Below are positions 22,700-31,244 of a stretch of 64,000 bases of DNA, one piece after another. The translations under genes were made by a program, and so were the position numbers. Source of the DNA: Gammaproteobacteria bacterium (lineage in GTDB: Bacteria > Pseudomonadota > Gammaproteobacteria > Pseudomonadales > Pseudomonadaceae); the NCBI GenBank assembly GCA_023475025.1, contig JAMCWB010000005.1:62001-126000 (forward strand), given 5' to 3'. Position 1 is the first letter of the stretch. Every line of letters starts with the position of its first letter. Under the pieces are notes generated by a model. That model saw only the letters and a program-made list of their open reading frames with translations. It did not search any database and had not been told where the DNA came from.

Positions 22700-24037
22700 A
22701 TGATAAAAATCAAACGGGGCTTGGATCTGCCAATCACCGGCTCACCCGAGCAGCGTATCGAGAACGGCCGTTCTGTACGCAGCGTCGCCGTAATCGGCTA
22801 CGACTACCATGGCATGAAACCAACCATGGAAGTGCAAGAGGGTGACCGGGTCAAATTGGGTCAGATCCTGTTCAGTGACAAGAAAACTGACGGTGTGATC
22901 TATACAGCACCGGCCAGTGGCGTTATCAGCGCGATCAACCGTGGTGATAAACGTGTTCTGCAGTCGGTAGTGATTGATATCGACGGCGATGACGCGATCA
23001 CCTTCGATGCGCATGATGCCGGCCAGCTGAGTTCGCTTGATCCGCAGAAGATCCGCGACCAACTGGTACAGTCGGGTGCCTGGACGTCCTTGCGCACTCG
23101 CCCCTACAGCAAGGTGCCGGCACTGGACAGCAAACCCAGTTCGATTTTTGTCACAGCAGTGGATACGCATCCGCTGGCCGCTGACCCTGCGGTAGTGATC
23201 CAGGAGTACGCCAGCGACTTCGAGAATGGCCTCAAGGTACTGGCGCGCCTGGCACCAATCTGGCTGTGCAAGGCCGAAGGTGTCAACCTGCCTGGCGAAG
23301 GCCTCGAGGGCGTTCGCACTGAAAGCTTTACTGGCCCACACCCCGCCGGTCTGCCGGGTACCCACATCCATCATCTGGATCCGGTCAGTACGACCAAGCA
23401 GGTCTGGCAAATTTTCCCGCAGGACGTGATTGCCATCGGCAAGCTGTTTACCGAAGGCAAGATCTGGACGGATCGCATTGTTGCCCTGGCTGGCCCGCGT
23501 GTTGAGCAGCCACGCCTGGTGCGCACTCGCGTTGGTGCCAGCCTGGAAGAGCTGACTGCCGGTGAGTTGAAACCGGGCAACAATCGCCTGATTTCCGGCT
23601 CTGTATTCGGTGGCCGTCATGCGCGAGGCGCAGTGGCTTACCTGGGGCGTTTCCATCAGCAGGTATCAGTGCTGGCGGAAGGTGATGATCGCGAAATGAT
23701 GCATTACCTGCGCGCCGGGGTGAACAAGCACTCGGTACTCAATATCTTCGTCTCCAAGCTGACGTCGGGCAAATTGTTCGATTTCACCACGACCACTAAC
23801 GGTAGTCCGCGTGCCATGGTGCCGCTGGGTAACTATGAAATGGTCATGCCGCTGGACATCCTGCCAACACAGCTGTTGCGTGCACTGATCGTCGGTGACA
23901 CTGACATCGCCCAGAAGCTGGGCTGCATGGAGCTGGATGAAGAGGATCTGGCCTTGTGTACCTATGTGTGCGCCGGCAAGTACGAATACGGCCCGATTCT
24001 GCGGGACAACCTTACCCTTATTGAAAAGGAGGGTTAA
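22700..24037 (+). CDS. nqrA: Na+-translocating NADH:quinone reductase subunit A
   Basis: A 445-residue subunit of the sodium pump, facing the cytoplasm. The start [20 protein letters not shown] is highly typical, and the length matches the family (about 445). It interacts with quinone at the membrane side together with NqrB. It is the first gene of nqrABCDEF, each gene being separated by 3-20 bases or overlapping. A weak TAGG precedes the ATG. Confidence 0.97.
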
Positions 24038-24040
24038 GTC

Positions 24041-25255
24041 ATGGGTTTGCGTAGCTACCTCGACAAGATCGAGCACAACTTCGAAAAGGGCGGCAAGCAC
24101 GAGAAGTGGTATGCCCTGTATGAAGCGGTCGATACTTTTTTCTATCGCCCCAAAAGCGTCACCAAGACCACCGCACACGTGCGCGACGGCCTTGACCTGA
24201 AACGCATGATGATCACTGTCTGGCTGTGTACTTTCCCGGTGATGTTCTACGGGATGTATAACATCGGTTTCCAGGCCAACAGCATCTATGCGGGTAACCC
24301 GGATCTGCTGGCGGCCCAGGAAAACTGGCGCATCGCCCTGATCAGCATGTTTGCCGGCTTTGACCCGGGCAGCGTGTGGGATAACTTCATTCACGGTGCA
24401 GCTTACTTTCTGCCTATCTATGCGGTGACCTTCATTGTTGGTGGTTTCTGGGAAGTGCTGTTTGCTTCCATCCGCAAGCATGAAGTCAACGAAGGCTTCT
24501 TCGTTACCTCGGTACTCTTCGCGCTGATCCTGCCAGCAAGCATTCCGCTGTGGCAGGTCGCTCTGGGGATTACCTTCGGTATCGTTGTCGGCAAGGAAGT
24601 CTTTGGCGGTACTGGCAAGAACTTCCTCAATCCGGCGCTGACCGGCCGTGCCTTCCTGTTCTTCGCCTATCCGGCGCAGATTTCCGGTGATTCGGTATGG
24701 ACATCGGTAGACGGCTACTCCGGTGCTACCGCGCTGAGCATGGCCGCTGAAGGTGGTGTTCAGGCCATCGTTGATGGCGGCATTACCTGGTGGAATGCCT
24801 TCGCCGGCAGCATCCATGGTTCCATGGGTGAAGTGTCGACCCTGGCGATATTTATCGGTGGCGCGGTGTTGTTGATTGCCAAGATTGCCAACTGGCGAAT
24901 TGTCGCCGGGGTCATGCTCGGCATGATCGCCATGAGCCTGCTGTTCAACATGATCGGTTCGGACACCAACCCGATGTTTTCCATGCCCTGGTACTGGCAT
25001 ATGGTGGTGGGTGGTTTTGCTTTCGGTATGATTTTCATGGCAACGGACCCGGTGTCTGCGTCCATGACCAACCAGGGTAAATGGTTTTTCGGTATTCTGA
25101 TCGGTGTCATGGTGATGCTGATTCGGGTCATCAACCCGGCCTTCCCGGAAGGCATGATGCTGGCAATTCTGTTTGCCAACCTGTTTGCTCCGCTGATTGA
25201 CCACTTTGTTGTTCAGGCCAACATCAAACGGAGGGTTGCACGCCATGTCAGCTAA
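24041..25255 (+). CDS. nqrB: Na+-NQR subunit B
   Basis: A 404-residue integral membrane subunit with about ten hydrophobic segments. It carries the covalent FMN site in DGYSGATAL, with the acceptor Thr at about T230. It also binds riboflavin and lines the sodium path. The [17 protein letters not shown] block near the C-terminus is conserved. AAGGAGG lies before the ATG, and the 3' end overlaps nqrC by 11 bases. Confidence 0.97.
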
Positions 25256-26024
25256 GAAAGAATCCATCGGGCGTACGATCACCGTCGCCTTCCTGGTCTG
25301 CCTGGTCTGCTCCGTCGTGGTATCGACCGCTGCAGTGTCCTTGCGACCGGCACAGATCCAGAATCAGTTGATCGACAAGCAGCGCAACATTCTGTCGATT
25401 GCAGGTTTGTTGCAGCCGGGTCTGAGTATTGAAGAGCAGTTTGCTGGCATCACCCCGCGCCTGGTCGATCTGCGTACCGGTCAGTTCAGTGATGAGCATG
25501 ATGCGCTGACCTTTGATGCCCGGCGTGCGGCGGGCGATCCTGCCCTGTCCAAGCGTCTGGACAGCAGCGATGATATTGCCGGCATTCGCCGTCGTGAGAA
25601 TTTTGCGACCGTTTATATGGTGGAAAACGATGCCGGTGACATCGAAACCCTGATTCTGCCGGTTTACGGTGCAGGTCTGTGGTCGACCCTCTATGGCTTT
25701 ATTGCCCTGGAAGGTGATCTCAACACCATCGTCGGTCTGGGCTTTTACCAGCACGCCGAAACACCCGGTCTGGGTGGCGAGGTTGATAACCCGAACTGGC
25801 AGCGTCAGTGGGAAGGCAATCGGGTTTTTGACGATGACGGCAATGTTGCTACCCGCGTCGTCAAGGGCGGGGTGGATCGCAACAGCCCGCAAGCAGACTA
25901 CGCGGTAGACGGCCTGGCCGGTGCTACCTTGACCGCACGCGGGGTTGAAAACCTGGTGCGTTTCTGGATGGGTGAGCAAGGCTTCCGTCCGTTCCTGAGC
26001 AACCTCAGTGCAGGGGAGGCATAA
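25245..26024 (+). CDS. nqrC: Na+-NQR subunit C
   Basis: A 259-residue subunit with one N-terminal membrane helix ([21 protein letters not shown]) and a periplasmic FMN-binding domain. The flavinylation site is [10 protein letters not shown], with the acceptor at about T228. The position before GAT is Ala where many homologues have Ser. The start at 25245 (MSAKKESIG, with GGAGG about 10 bases upstream) is preferred over a longer frame that reads through nqrB. Confidence 0.96.
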
Positions 26025-26026
26025 TC

Positions 26027-26698
26027 ATGGCTAAAGCAAGCGCCAAGCAGGTGCTCTTCGAACCTATTTTCAGTAATAACCCGATCGCGCTTCAGGTCCT
26101 GGGTATCTGTTCTGCTCTGGCGGTAACCACCAGCCTGAGCGTAACCCTGGTCATGTGTGTGGCTCTGACCGCCGTATGCGCCTTGTCCAACCTGTTTATC
26201 TCGATTATCCGTAATCAGATTCCTAGTGCGATCCGTATGATTGTGCAAATGGTGATCATTGCTTCGCTGGTAATTCTGGTCGACCAGATCCTCAAGGCTT
26301 ACGCCTATGAGACCAGTCGTCAGTTGTCGGTATTCGTTGGTCTGATTATCACCAACTGTATCGTCATGGGGCGTGCTGAAGCCTTTGCCATGCAGAACCC
26401 GCCGCACATGAGTTTCCTTGATGGCGTCGGTAACGGTCTGGGTTACAGCTTTATTCTGATTGTGGTCGCGGTTATCCGTGAGTTGTTCGGTGCCGGTACC
26501 CTGCTGGGCTTCGAAATCCTGCAGTCGGTCAACAATGGTGGCTGGTATCAGCCCAACGGTATGCTGTTGTTGCCGCCGTCCGCCTTCTTCATCATTGGTT
26601 TCACCATCTGGATTCTGCGTACCTGGGACAAGGGCCAGATTGAGGAAGAAGAATTCAAGATGAAGCCGCAGACCCGGTCCCTCAAGGAGGCCATGTAA
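26027..26698 (+). CDS. nqrD: Na+-NQR subunit D
   Basis: A 223-residue membrane protein with six hydrophobic segments, opening with [29 protein letters not shown]. It contains the Cys-bearing half-helix ([17 protein letters not shown]) that, with NqrE, holds an intramembrane iron centre. It is paralogous to NqrE and homologous to RnfE. ATG at 26027 is 2 bases after the nqrC stop. Confidence 0.97.
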
Positions 26699-26700
26699 TC

Positions 26701-27312
26701 ATGATTGAACATTACATCAGCCTGATGGTCAGGGCGATTTTTGTCGAGAACATGGCTTTGGCCTTCTTCCTCGGCATGTGTACCTTCCTGGCTATCTCGA
26801 AAAAAGTGCAGACCTCTTTGGGTCTGGGTATTGCGGTTGTGGTGGTACTGACCATCACAGTGCCGGCCAACAACCTGATCTTTAACTATCTGCTGCGTGA
26901 CGGCGCGCTGGCCTGGGCCGGTATGCCGAATGTCGACCTGAGCTTCCTTGGTCTGCTCAGTTACATCGGTGTGATTGCAGCCATGGTGCAGATCCTGGAA
27001 ATGACGCTGGATAAATACCTGCCGGCGCTTTACAACGCCCTCGGTGTGTTCCTGCCACTGATTACGGTGAACTGCGCCATTCTGGGTGCGTCACTGTTCA
27101 TGGTTGAGCGTGATTATGCCTTTGGTGAAAGCGTGGTTTACGGCTTTGGTGCTGGCGTGGGCTGGGCTCTGGCAATTGTTGCACTTGCCGGGATCCGGGA
27201 GAAACTCAAGTACAGTGACGTCCCTGCGGGTCTGCGTGGCCTTGGCATCACCTTCATTATTGTTGGTCTGATGTCGCTTGGCTTTATGTCTTTCTCCGGC
27301 GTCCAACTGTAA
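26701..27312 (+). CDS. nqrE: Na+-NQR subunit E
   Basis: A 203-residue membrane subunit with six hydrophobic segments, homologous to RnfA. It has Cys in [12 protein letters not shown] and in [15 protein letters not shown], positions known to bind the iron between NqrD and NqrE. It starts 2 bases after nqrD, with AAGGAGG overlapping the nqrD end. Confidence 0.97.
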
Positions 27313-27330: not shown

Positions 27331-28557
27331 ATGAATACTGAAATTATCCTTGGCGTCGGGATGTTCACCGCGGTCGTTTTGACCCTGGTGGGCGTTATCC
27401 TGGCAGCCCGTTCCAAGCTGGTCGCCAGCGGCGATATCACCATTGAAATCAATGGCGAGCGCACCATTACCGTGCCCGCCGGTGGCAAGCTGCTGAATAC
27501 CTTGTCCGATAACGGTATCTTCCTGTCTTCGGCCTGTGGTGGCGGTGGTACCTGCGCGCAGTGCAAATGTATTGTCGAAGAGGGCGGTGGCTCCATGCTG
27601 CCGACTGAAGAGACGCATTTCACCAAGCGTGAAGCGCGTGAAGGCTGGCGCCTGTCCTGTCAGGCACCGGTCAAGGCCGACATGAAAATCGAAGTGCCGG
27701 AAGAAGTCTTTGGCGTGAAGAAGTGGGAATGCACCGTTGAGTCAAATCCCAACGTGGCTACCTTCATCAAAGAGCTCACGCTTAAGCTACCAGAAGGCGA
27801 GAATGTTGATTTCCGTGCTGGTGGCTATGTGCAGCTGGAGTGTCCGCCGCACACGGTTCATTACAAGGATTTTGACATCCAGGAAGAATTCCACGGTGAC
27901 TGGGACAAGTTCGATGTCTGGCGTTATGTCTCCAAGGTCGATGAAACCGTTATCCGTGCTTATTCGATGGCCAACTACCCGGAAGAACGTGGTGTGGTGA
28001 AGTTCAACATCCGTGTTGCAACGCCGCCGCCAGGTCGTGACGATCTGCCGCCAGGCAAGATGTCATCCTGGGTGTTTGGTCTCAAGCCGGGTGACAAGGG
28101 CGTAGTCGTCTATGGTCCCTTTGGTGAGTTCTTTGCCAAGGAAACCGATGCCGAGATGGTCTTCGTTGGCGGTGGTGCCGGTATGGCGCCCATGCGCTCG
28201 CACATCTTTGACCAGCTCAAGCGCCTGAACTCCAAGCGCAAGATCAGCTTCTGGTACGGCGCCCGTTCATTGCGTGAAGCCTTCTACGTGGAAGAGTTCG
28301 ACAAGCTGGCAGAAGAGAATGAAAATTTCTCCTGGCACCTGGCCCTGTCAGAGCCACTGCCGGAAGACAACTGGGAAGGCCCGACCGGCTTTATTCACAA
28401 CGTGCTGTATGACAACTATCTGAAAGATCATCCGGCACCGGAAGACTGCGAGTTCTACATGTGCGGTCCGCCGATGATGAATGCCTCGGTCATCAAGCTG
28501 CTTGAAGACCTGGGGGTTGAGCCGGAGAACGTCCTGCTCGACGACTTCGGCGGCTAG
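27331..28557 (+). CDS. nqrF: Na+-NQR subunit F (NADH-oxidising)
   Basis: A 408-residue subunit where NADH is oxidised. It has an N-terminal membrane helix, then a 2Fe-2S ferredoxin domain with C69, C75, C78 and C110 ([11 protein letters not shown] ... LSCQA). The FAD domain has RAYSMANYP, and the NAD(P) domain has [14 protein letters not shown] and [11 protein letters not shown]. The C-terminus LLDDFGG is canonical. AAGAGGAG precedes the ATG. Confidence 0.98.
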
Positions 28558-28558
28558 C

Positions 28559-29542
28559 ATGCCCCGCTGGTTGTTCCAGCCCGTCATGGTCGCTGCTATA
28601 GCAGTGTTCCTGACGGGCTGTTTCATTTCTGCCGACCCGATCAGTGAAGTCGAGGGTGACACTCAACTGGGCAGTTATAGCCTGAAGTGGCTGGCCAGTC
28701 GCGGGACTCCCGAGCCGACTGCGTTGCAGCAACAGTTGGAAGCGCATATTGATCAACTGGGGCATGAATTGTTGCCGTTGACAGCAGATAGCCCGTTAGC
28801 GGTTTTCAATCGTTTGCCGCCAGGCGCTTGCATGTCGCTGCCTGAGTCGGTGCGGCAGTTGCTGCAGTACTTGCAGTCGTTCCATGTGTTCAGTGATACA
28901 CATACCCCTGAGCAGACCTTGTTACCCTGGTGGCTGGTGTCGTCGGCCGGCACCAAACAGCTGTCCAGCGAGCACTCATCGATGCTGTCGCTGGAGTCGG
29001 ATGAAGTGTGCCGGCATGCCAGCGTGCAACTTGATCTTTCCAGTCTGGTCAACAGCTATGTGGTTGATACCCTGGACAGCTGGCTGCAGCAGCAGGGGAT
29101 CCAGAATTACATGCTAGAGCTGGCCGGGGATGTTAGGGTAAGGGGTAAACGCGCTGCGGGCCGCCCCTGGAAGGTGGTCGTCGAGGCGCCGCGCGATCAT
29201 GCCCGGCTGGCTTATCGTTTGCTTGAACTGGATGATCACGCAGTGGCGCGCGCTGGTGATTACCGTGACTATGTAGCCCGTTCACGCAATCAGTCGACCT
29301 GGCTGCAAGGTCAGGTTGCTGACAGCGGGCAGCCGGGTCTACGTTGCGTCACCGTATTGGCCGAATCAGCAACCGAGGCTGATTCCCTGGCGCACCTGTT
29401 GATGTTCATGGGCGCTGAGCAGGGCTGGTTATTTGCTGAAGAGCAGGGGATCTCGGCGTTTTTTGTCGAGCAGCATGCGGAGAATAGCTTTGTTTCCCGC
29501 GGTACCCAGGCTTTTATGGCGCTGAAAAACAGCGAGGAGTAA
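28559..29542 (+). CDS. Divergent ApbE-like lipoprotein in nqr operon
   Basis: A 327-residue protein with lipobox LTGC near residues 18-21 (MPRWLFQPVMVAAIAVFLTGC). ApbE proteins transfer FMN onto threonines of NqrB and NqrC. Family blocks remain recognisable: DLSSLVNSYVVD for the usual DLSxIAKGYAVD, ELAGDVRVRG for (D/E)IGGDVRARG, RPWKVVVEAP, and GDYRDYV. However, the usual HxxDPxTG after that block is replaced by TWLQGQVADSGQPG. The GAFDPTVxPLVNLWGFG region is also replaced by unrelated sequence, and the late ADALATA block reads ADSLAHL. It is probably a degenerate or altered flavin transferase. It starts 1 base after the nqrF stop. Confidence 0.75.
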   Translation: MPRWLFQPVMVAAIAVFLTGCFISADPISEVEGDTQLGSYSLKWLASRGTPEPTALQQQLEAHIDQLGHELLPLTADSPLAVFNRLPPGACMSLPESVRQLLQYLQSFHVFSDTHTPEQTLLPWWLVSSAGTKQLSSEHSSMLSLESDEVCRHASVQLDLSSLVNSYVVDTLDSWLQQQGIQNYMLELAGDVRVRGKRAAGRPWKVVVEAPRDHARLAYRLLELDDHAVARAGDYRDYVARSRNQSTWLQGQVADSGQPGLRCVTVLAESATEADSLAHLLMFMGAEQGWLFAEEQGISAFFVEQHAENSFVSRGTQAFMALKNSEE

Positions 29543-29545
29543 GAA

Positions 29546-29788
29546 ATGATTTATGTATTGGCGTTTGTAGTGATGGCGGTCATTGTTATTGGTATGTCGG
29601 TGGGTGTCATGGCTGGCCGTAAGCCCATTGCCGGTTCTTGTGGTGGCATCGGCGCGACGGGTGTGACCAAGGAATGTGGTATCTGTGGTGGTGACGTGCA
29701 AAAGTGCGAAGAAGCCAACCCGACGGACAAGGCCGGTAATCTGCGCACTGACCTGGCGCGTGATGCGACCAAGACCAAGGTCGACTAG
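29546..29788 (+). CDS. nqrM: NqrM (DUF539), Na+-NQR maturation factor
   Basis: An 80-residue protein with one N-terminal membrane helix (MIYVLAFVVMAVIVIGMSVGV) and four cysteines, C32, C44, C47 and C54, in SCGG, ECGICGG and QKCEE. This is the NqrM signature. In Vibrio, NqrM is required to install iron in the NqrD-NqrE site. It starts 3 bases after the ApbE-like gene, with GAGGAG upstream, and is the last gene of the nqr operon. Confidence 0.95.
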   Translation: MIYVLAFVVMAVIVIGMSVGVMAGRKPIAGSCGGIGATGVTKECGICGGDVQKCEEANPTDKAGNLRTDLARDATKTKVD

Positions 29789-29846: not shown

Positions 29847-31244
29847 ATGGCTGTATACAATTACGATGTAGTTGTCCTGGGTTCCGGCCCGGCGGGTGAA
29901 GGGGCGGCAATGAATGCTGCCAAGCACGGCCGCAAGGTTGCCGTGGTGGAAGAGCGCGAGGTGGTTGGGGGTAACTGCACTCATCTGGGCACTATTCCGT
30001 CCAAGGCGCTGCGCTACTCAGTCAAGCAGATCATCCAGTTCAATACCAATCCCATGTTCCGTAAGATTGGCGATCCGCGCTGGTTTTCCTTTCCGGATGT
30101 GTTGCGTAGTGCGGAAAAGGTAATGAACAAACAGGTTGCTTCGCGTACCAGTTATTATGCGCGCAACCGGGTGGACGTTTTCTTTGGCAAGGGCAGTTTT
30201 GCTGATGAGCGCACTATCGAGCTGGTCAGCCCGTCCGGCGGACTGGAAAAGCTGATCGCCAAGGAAATCATTATCGCGACCGGCTCTCGTCCGTATCGCC
30301 CTGCGGACGTTAATTTCAGCCACCCGCGTATTTACGACAGCGACACCATTCTCAAGCTTAACCATACGCCGCGTACCTTGATTATCTATGGTGCGGGGGT
30401 TATCGGCTGCGAGTATGCGTCGATCTTCTGTGGTCTTGGCGTCAAGGTCGATCTGATTGATACCCGCGACCGTTTGCTCAGCTTTCTCGATGACGAGATT
30501 TCCGATGCCCTCAGTTACCACCTGCGTAACAGCAGTGTGTTGATCCGGCATAATGAGGAATACGAGAAGATCGAGGGTACGGACAAGTCAGGTGTTGTTC
30601 TGCATCTGAAGTCCGGCAAGAAGCTCAAGGCAGACGCCTTGCTCTGGTGTAACGGGCGCACCGGCAATACCGATGGCCTGGGGCTGGAGAATATTGGTCT
30701 GCAGGCCAACGGTCGCGGCCAGCTGGAAGTGGACGAGAATTACCGCACTGAAATCCCGAATATCTATGCCGTGGGTGATGTTATCGGCTGGCCGAGCCTG
30801 GCCAGTGCCGCTTTTGACCAGGGCCGCTCGGCAGCAGGTAATATTGTCAGCAATGATGCCTGGCGTTTTGTTGATGATGTGCCGACCGGAATTTACACCA
30901 TTCCTGAAATCAGCTCCTTGGGCAAAACCGAGCGGGAATTGACCGAGGCACAGGTGCCTTATGAAATCGGCCAGGCCTTCTTCAAGAGCATTGCTCGTGC
31001 CCAGATCAGTGGTGAGCCAGTCGGCTTGCTCAAGATCCTGTTCCATCGCGATACGCTTGAGGTGCTGGGCATTCACTGCTTTGGTGACCAGGCGGCCGAG
31101 ATTGTGCACATTGGCCAGGCGGTGATGAATCAGAAAGGCGAAGCAAACAGCATCAAGTACTTCGTCAATACCACCTTCAACTACCCGACCATGGCCGAAG
31201 CCTACCGGATTGCCGCACTGGATGGGCTGAACCGGCTCTTTTGA
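29847..31244 (+). CDS. sthA: Soluble pyridine nucleotide transhydrogenase
   Basis: A 465-residue FAD flavoprotein that exchanges reducing equivalents between NADPH and NAD+. The FAD site is [20 protein letters not shown]. The position of the disulfide in related reductases reads [16 protein letters not shown], where the first Cys (C44) stays and the second is Thr49. This is normal for SthA and not a defect. The C-terminal dimer domain includes [31 protein letters not shown] precedes the ATG. Together with NQR it balances NADH and NADPH. Confidence 0.97.

Follow-up and report, generated by a model that had tools for sequence, protein, structure and literature searches.

The window, i.e. the whole stretch of DNA that was analyzed, comprises 64,000 nucleotides and contains an nqr operon with the gene order nqrABCDEF-apbE-nqrM-sthA. 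The genes of this locus and the relevant features within the apbE-like gene are given below in window coordinates.

22700..24037, forward strand: nqrA
24041..25255, forward strand: nqrB, FMN site T230 (codon 24728-24730)
25245..26024, forward strand: nqrC, FMN site T228 (codon 25926-25928)
26027..26698, forward strand: nqrD
26701..27312, forward strand: nqrE
27331..28557, forward strand: nqrF, stop codon 1 base upstream of the apbE ATG
28559..29542, forward strand: apbE-like gene (degenerate nqr-linked ApbE), open reading frame of 327 aa, Pfam ApbE E 6.5e-31
28610..28621, forward strand: lipobox-like L-T-G-C with Cys21, read from the translation
28889..28963, forward strand: codons 111-135, stretch replacing the FD.T..PLL.LWGF region, with deletions inside and directly after it
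29249..29311, forward strand: codons 231-251, active-site loop, TSGDYRN..SHTFDP changed to RAGDYRD..STWLQG, equivalents of Ser241 and His257 lost
29381..29395, forward strand: codons 275-279, Asp275 (equivalent of Asp285) kept, Thr replaced by His279 in 4/4 species
29546..29788, forward strand: nqrM (PF04400), starting 3 bases past the apbE stop
29847..31244, forward strand: sthA, Si-specific NAD(P)+ transhydrogenase

In Vibrio cholerae, the nqr genes are co-transcribed with apbE and nqrM (PMC12174285), so the apbE-like gene of the window lies in its usual setting, and nqrF, nqrM and sthA are found beside the nqr-linked apbE in all 36 loci of the genus. The flavinylation sites that a preliminary description of this DNA had assigned to NqrB (T230) and NqrC (T228) are retained, being located within SGAT and AGAT as read from the sequence. 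The protein was likewise correctly assigned to the ApbE family by the blocks DLSSLVNSYVVD, ELAGDVRVRG and GDYRDYV, all of which are present. It matches Pfam-A PF02424 with an E-value of 6.5e-31 and 107.2-108.2 bits (cut-off 25.6) and is a member by descent, as its gene follows nqrF and as it groups with the nqr-linked ApbEs in the ApbE tree (support 99), although on a long branch whose exact position is unsure. The best relative of known structure, the ApbE in PDB 5mgy, is assigned to Pseudomonas stutzeri in PMC12052999 and was matched by phmmer over residues 26-322 (E 5.8e-47) and by profile (E 7.1e-56); it retains FDLTLEPLLNLWGFG, whereas the window protein is without it. Gly20 and Cys21 are found in all 31 canonical and all four degenerate nqr-linked copies of the alignment, and this conserved LTGC lipobox suggests that the degenerate ApbE is a predicted periplasmic lipoprotein. 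Cys91 and Cys151 are also common to degenerate and canonical nqr-linked copies.

The conserved catalytic residues of V. cholerae ApbE are Ser241, His257 and Asp285 (PMC12052999), which match Ser257, His273 and Asp301 in Listeria FmnB (PMC8906456). The V. cholerae protein (PDB 6nxi; H257G mutant 6nxj) is homologous to the window protein over profile positions 32-320, and with residue numbers hand-counted from the H257G mutant chain in the alignments, Asp285 is shared as Asp275, whereas Ser241, His257 and the Thr four past Asp285 correspond to Ala232, Thr247 and His279. Three other species of the genus carry degenerate copies, with 61, 71 and 74% identity to the window protein. In all four, the Ser and His of the triad are lost and the Asp is retained, the His257 equivalent being Thr in the window copy and Val in the other three. 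Aligning the nqr-linked ApbEs of relatives, as the preliminary description had proposed, revealed that Ser, His, Asp and Thr are retained in 31/31 canonical copies of the genus. These canonical copies are located at the same place after nqrF and have 33-41% identity to the degenerate ones.

The preliminary description was also right that HxxDPxTG is missing, since the canonical His and Asp columns are occupied by Thr/Val and Gln in 4/4 degenerate copies; in the canonical nqr-linked copies, the same columns hold His in 31/31 and Asp in 29/31 cases (Asn in 2). The region described there as FDPTVxPLVNLWGFG is indeed replaced, reading VFSDTHTPEQTLLPWWLVSS, and is shortened as well: compared with the canonical copy of genome G024, 14 alignment columns filled in G024 are empty and 1 is extra. 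Gly166 is changed to Ser in the degenerate form. Judged by sequence, the marks of a working transferase, i.e. the Ser-His-Asp triad, HxxDPxTG and the FD.T..PLL.LWGF region, are therefore not intact. The NCBIfam equivalog PRK10461 for E. coli-type ApbE scores 89 bits against a cut-off of 498, which carries little weight as canonical relatives were left unscored. All four degenerate copies retain 55 of the 125 near-invariant columns and all four lack 50 of them, although some of these losses are mild swaps, e.g. Leu for Ile or Arg for Lys. Conversely, His214, His227, Arg231, Trp248, Arg262 and His279 are invariant in the four, while the 31 canonical copies lack these residues, have them only rarely or vary at the position. 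A sequencing slip could be ruled out because the same changes are present in three other species. The AlphaFold model of the window protein, built on an alignment of 3 sequences (the protein and two relatives), has a mean pLDDT of 38.5 and is too poor for judging Mg and FAD binding in the fold.

The retained Asp275 and the His279 found in place of Thr in 4/4 copies would fit an enzyme whose active site has been rebuilt and which still works as a flavin transferase or FAD hydrolase, and other ApbEs do tolerate some single-residue mutations. The His257Gly exchange is described as lowering the activity of V. cholerae ApbE without abolishing it (PMC12052999), and in FmnB Ser257 to Ala merely lowered activity, whereas His273 to Ala was inactive (PMC8906456). 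The one Mg of FmnB is bound by Asp301, Ser304 and Ala187 (PMC8906456), and in Treponema pallidum Ftp Mg ligands are the sole residues found to be critical for transfer (PMC4767422). Because Asp275, the equivalent of a Mg ligand of FmnB, is kept, the critical residues of Ftp are Mg ligands and the His257Gly variant is still active, some residual activity of the degenerate copy is possible, which counts against the pseudoenzyme reading preferred below. However, the changes affect the triad Ser and His, the HxxD Asp, the Thr and the FD.T..LWGF region all at once, and a second ApbE is available in the genome, so an active enzyme of this kind is regarded as quite unlikely. The special case in which Asp275 and the new His279 (i, i+4), possibly with His227/Arg231, make up a metal- or phosphate-binding site of another kind is very improbable; if it were true, the protein would be an ApbE fold with another chemistry, catalyzing or carrying something new for NQR.

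The preliminary description had left three alternatives for flavin attachment, namely a second canonical ApbE, a different chemistry or a chaperone. The first was borne out by the whole-genome search, which resulted in two Pfam ApbE matches (more are possible, as the assembly is 91.43% complete): the window copy and a canonical ApbE, termed ApbE2, at G000:C25:11227-12075(-) with 299.7 bits to Pfam ApbE and with FDVTVGGLVNLWSFGP. For a different chemistry, nothing was found beyond the Asp275/His279 pair, whereas a chaperone-like role would fit the purifying selection after the loss described below. ApbE2 is present in 4/4 genomes with a degenerate copy, and its triad and lid columns are intact. 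The gene uppP (a label obtained, like mgtE and TonB receptor, from reading the proteins) adjoins ApbE2 in 7/8 ApbE2 loci, and in the eighth (G014) the contig stops at the gene; the ApbE2 site is therefore suggested to be an inherited place and not a recent insertion. The genome of the window also encodes one FMN_bind protein (70.5 bits), which together with its neighbours (G000 contig C57, L053) we take to be RnfG and RnfD, both with FMN sites, and RnfE. The organism thus seems to have both Na+-NQR and an Rnf complex in need of a flavin transferase, and RnfG and RnfD would be further clients besides NqrB and NqrC.

Within the genus, a Pfam ApbE match was obtained in 36/37 genomes, the one without a match being 75% complete, and nine of the 37 genomes contain two ApbEs. 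The nqr-linked copies separate by Pfam score into the four degenerate ones (107-117 bits), that of G019 (217 bits) and the other 31 (252-275 bits). ApbE2 is carried by the four degenerate genomes, by G019 and by G014, G018 and G028, the last three having it together with an intact nqr-linked copy. The second ApbE of G013 (L040, contig C44) is of a different, very divergent type with 38% identity to ApbE2, and no uppP is located near it within the 10.4 kb contig. In G019, the nqr-linked ApbE (L047:7588-8619) is partly degenerate: the triad is kept, GDYRN is changed to GNHRR and Thr to Ser. The same process may have begun here independently, with this copy at an early stage.

In a midpoint-rooted tree of nqrF and sthA, the four degenerate species form one clade (100/100), followed by G018 and G028 (91/70) and then by G019 (81/87). 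Because G018 and G028, the nearest neighbours in this tree, carry both copies with intact motifs, ApbE2 probably preceded the loss of the active site, the support for their position being moderate. In the ApbE tree, unlike in the nqrF and sthA tree, the degenerate copies join G019 instead of G018/G028 (support 85, with a long-branch warning), which counts against the reading preferred below. The four degenerate copies have a common origin, and since they represent one event, their association with ApbE2 is not statistically independent. For 24 of 46 lost near-invariant columns (14/26 plus 10/20), the same new residue is found in all four. With one shared new residue in half of the lost columns, much of the loss predates the split, and the motif loss in the degenerate clade is older than the divergence of the four species.

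A profile of the four sequences matched 277 genomes in an evenly drawn sample of 293 from the order, G000 being among them; the window's own copy scored 663.5 bits and the next best match 224.6 bits. The motifs were inspected in the nine same-family loci from this search, all of which keep STSGDYRN and SHT (nqrF lies beside 5/9), and independent cases beyond these nine are possible. Two scans of viral contigs yielded no further relatives.

No inner stop codons are present in the four degenerate frames. Pairwise dN/dS among the four copies is 0.10-0.24 by NG86 at dS 1.0-1.5 and 0.16-0.31 by YN00, the pairs being non-independent and dS values of about 1 or above being near saturation. As the loss had largely taken place before the split, the measured constraint applies to the degenerate form, on which purifying selection acts after the loss. 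The protein therefore satisfies the definition of a pseudoenzyme, i.e. an enzyme homologue that lacks catalytic residues and is nevertheless under purifying selection. The constraint is uneven along the sequence: identity among the four is 0.54-0.60 for residues 25-155 and 0.77-0.85 for residues 156-327, with a mean of 0.85 and a median dN/dS of 0.12 in the C-terminal part (residues 257-327), whereas the 24-residue signal region is unconstrained (median dN/dS 1.14).

A fading gene, which the presence of ApbE2 made redundant and which now decays slowly without any remaining function, would account for several of these observations. The ApbE tree gives a length of 1.8 for the branch leading to the degenerate clade, vs. 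0.076 in the nqrF and sthA tree, and G019, which belongs to another lineage, bears ApbE2 and has a partly degenerate nqr-linked copy as well. The dN/dS values overlap with those of intact nqr-linked copies (NG86 0.04-0.22 in six comparison groups) but tend to be higher, and they lie above those of ApbE2 from the same four species (0.08-0.12); like the unconstrained signal region, this also speaks against the reading preferred below. Furthermore, family-wide and nqr-type-only columns are lost equally, 26/61 and 23/52 being kept (Fisher p 1.0). A loss of the catalytic core with the nqr-specific residues spared is thus not supported; the even loss gives no sign of a spared partner-binding surface and no special support for a helper role. 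Simple decay is nevertheless unlikely, because all four frames have stayed open with a dN/dS of 0.10-0.24 even though the species split only after much of the loss. That the frame is preserved solely through polarity or translational coupling was dismissed, as neither would keep dN/dS well below 1.

Taken as a whole, the preferred reading, to which we assign a probability of about 0.5, is that the degenerate copy is an ApbE pseudoenzyme, i.e. a putative non-catalytic periplasmic lipoprotein that would help in the maturation of Na+-NQR while ApbE2 carries out the flavinylation. That the copy is not a working transferase and that ApbE2 has taken over flavinylation is likely on the basis of the motifs; a specific helper role in NQR maturation is proposed more tentatively, and both the absence of activity and this role are what we infer. 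In this reading, the nqr-linked FAD:protein FMN transferase lost the FD.T..LWGF region and two of the three residues of the triad in a single event before the four species diverged, when their lineage probably possessed ApbE2 already. Judging from the motifs, ApbE2 would flavinylate NqrB-T230, NqrC-T228 and the Rnf subunits. The degenerate copy would stay a membrane-tethered periplasmic lipoprotein, its gene remaining in one operon with those for NQR and NqrM. Most likely it would still bind a maturation partner (e.g. apo-NqrC, apo-NqrB or ApbE2) and would serve in assembly or targeting without any catalysis of its own.

The six residues that are invariant only in the degenerate copies could also point to a new function unrelated to NQR maturation, e.g. 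periplasmic binding of another metal or of a small molecule. However, the gene is still tightly positioned in the nqr operon, 1 base after nqrF and 3 bases before nqrM, so this explanation, with its putative ligand, appears improbable.

To our knowledge, ApbE is usually regarded purely as an enzyme. If the pseudoenzyme reading holds, the copy that selection keeps in the nqr operon despite the loss of most of its active site suggests that nqr-linked ApbE may have a second, non-catalytic role in the assembly of Na+-NQR. Intact ApbEs could conceal this role as well, and the natural split of the two functions over two genes would make this second role directly testable.

Paracoccus denitrificans likewise encodes several ApbE homologues, among them NosX and NirX, that serve different purposes (PMC7660919). 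NosX keeps the key flavin-binding residues of P. stutzeri ApbE, and a degenerate copy is not described in the accessible part of that paper, where "catalytically inactive" refers to a copper centre. Genomes with multiple ApbEs are noted in the flavinylation survey PMC8238504, the main text of which contains neither "degenerate" nor "inactive". No ApbE pseudoenzyme was found in the literature searched, which leaves its absence unproven as most subscription papers lie outside that search. For annotation, the Pfam score well above the cut-off means that the protein would be labelled a flavin transferase by Pfam alone.

As a minor observation from the surroundings of ApbE2 (G000 contig C25), a TonB-dependent-receptor-like gene appears to be split into two overlapping frames (L001:20-1021 and 987-1400), by a frameshift or an assembly error.
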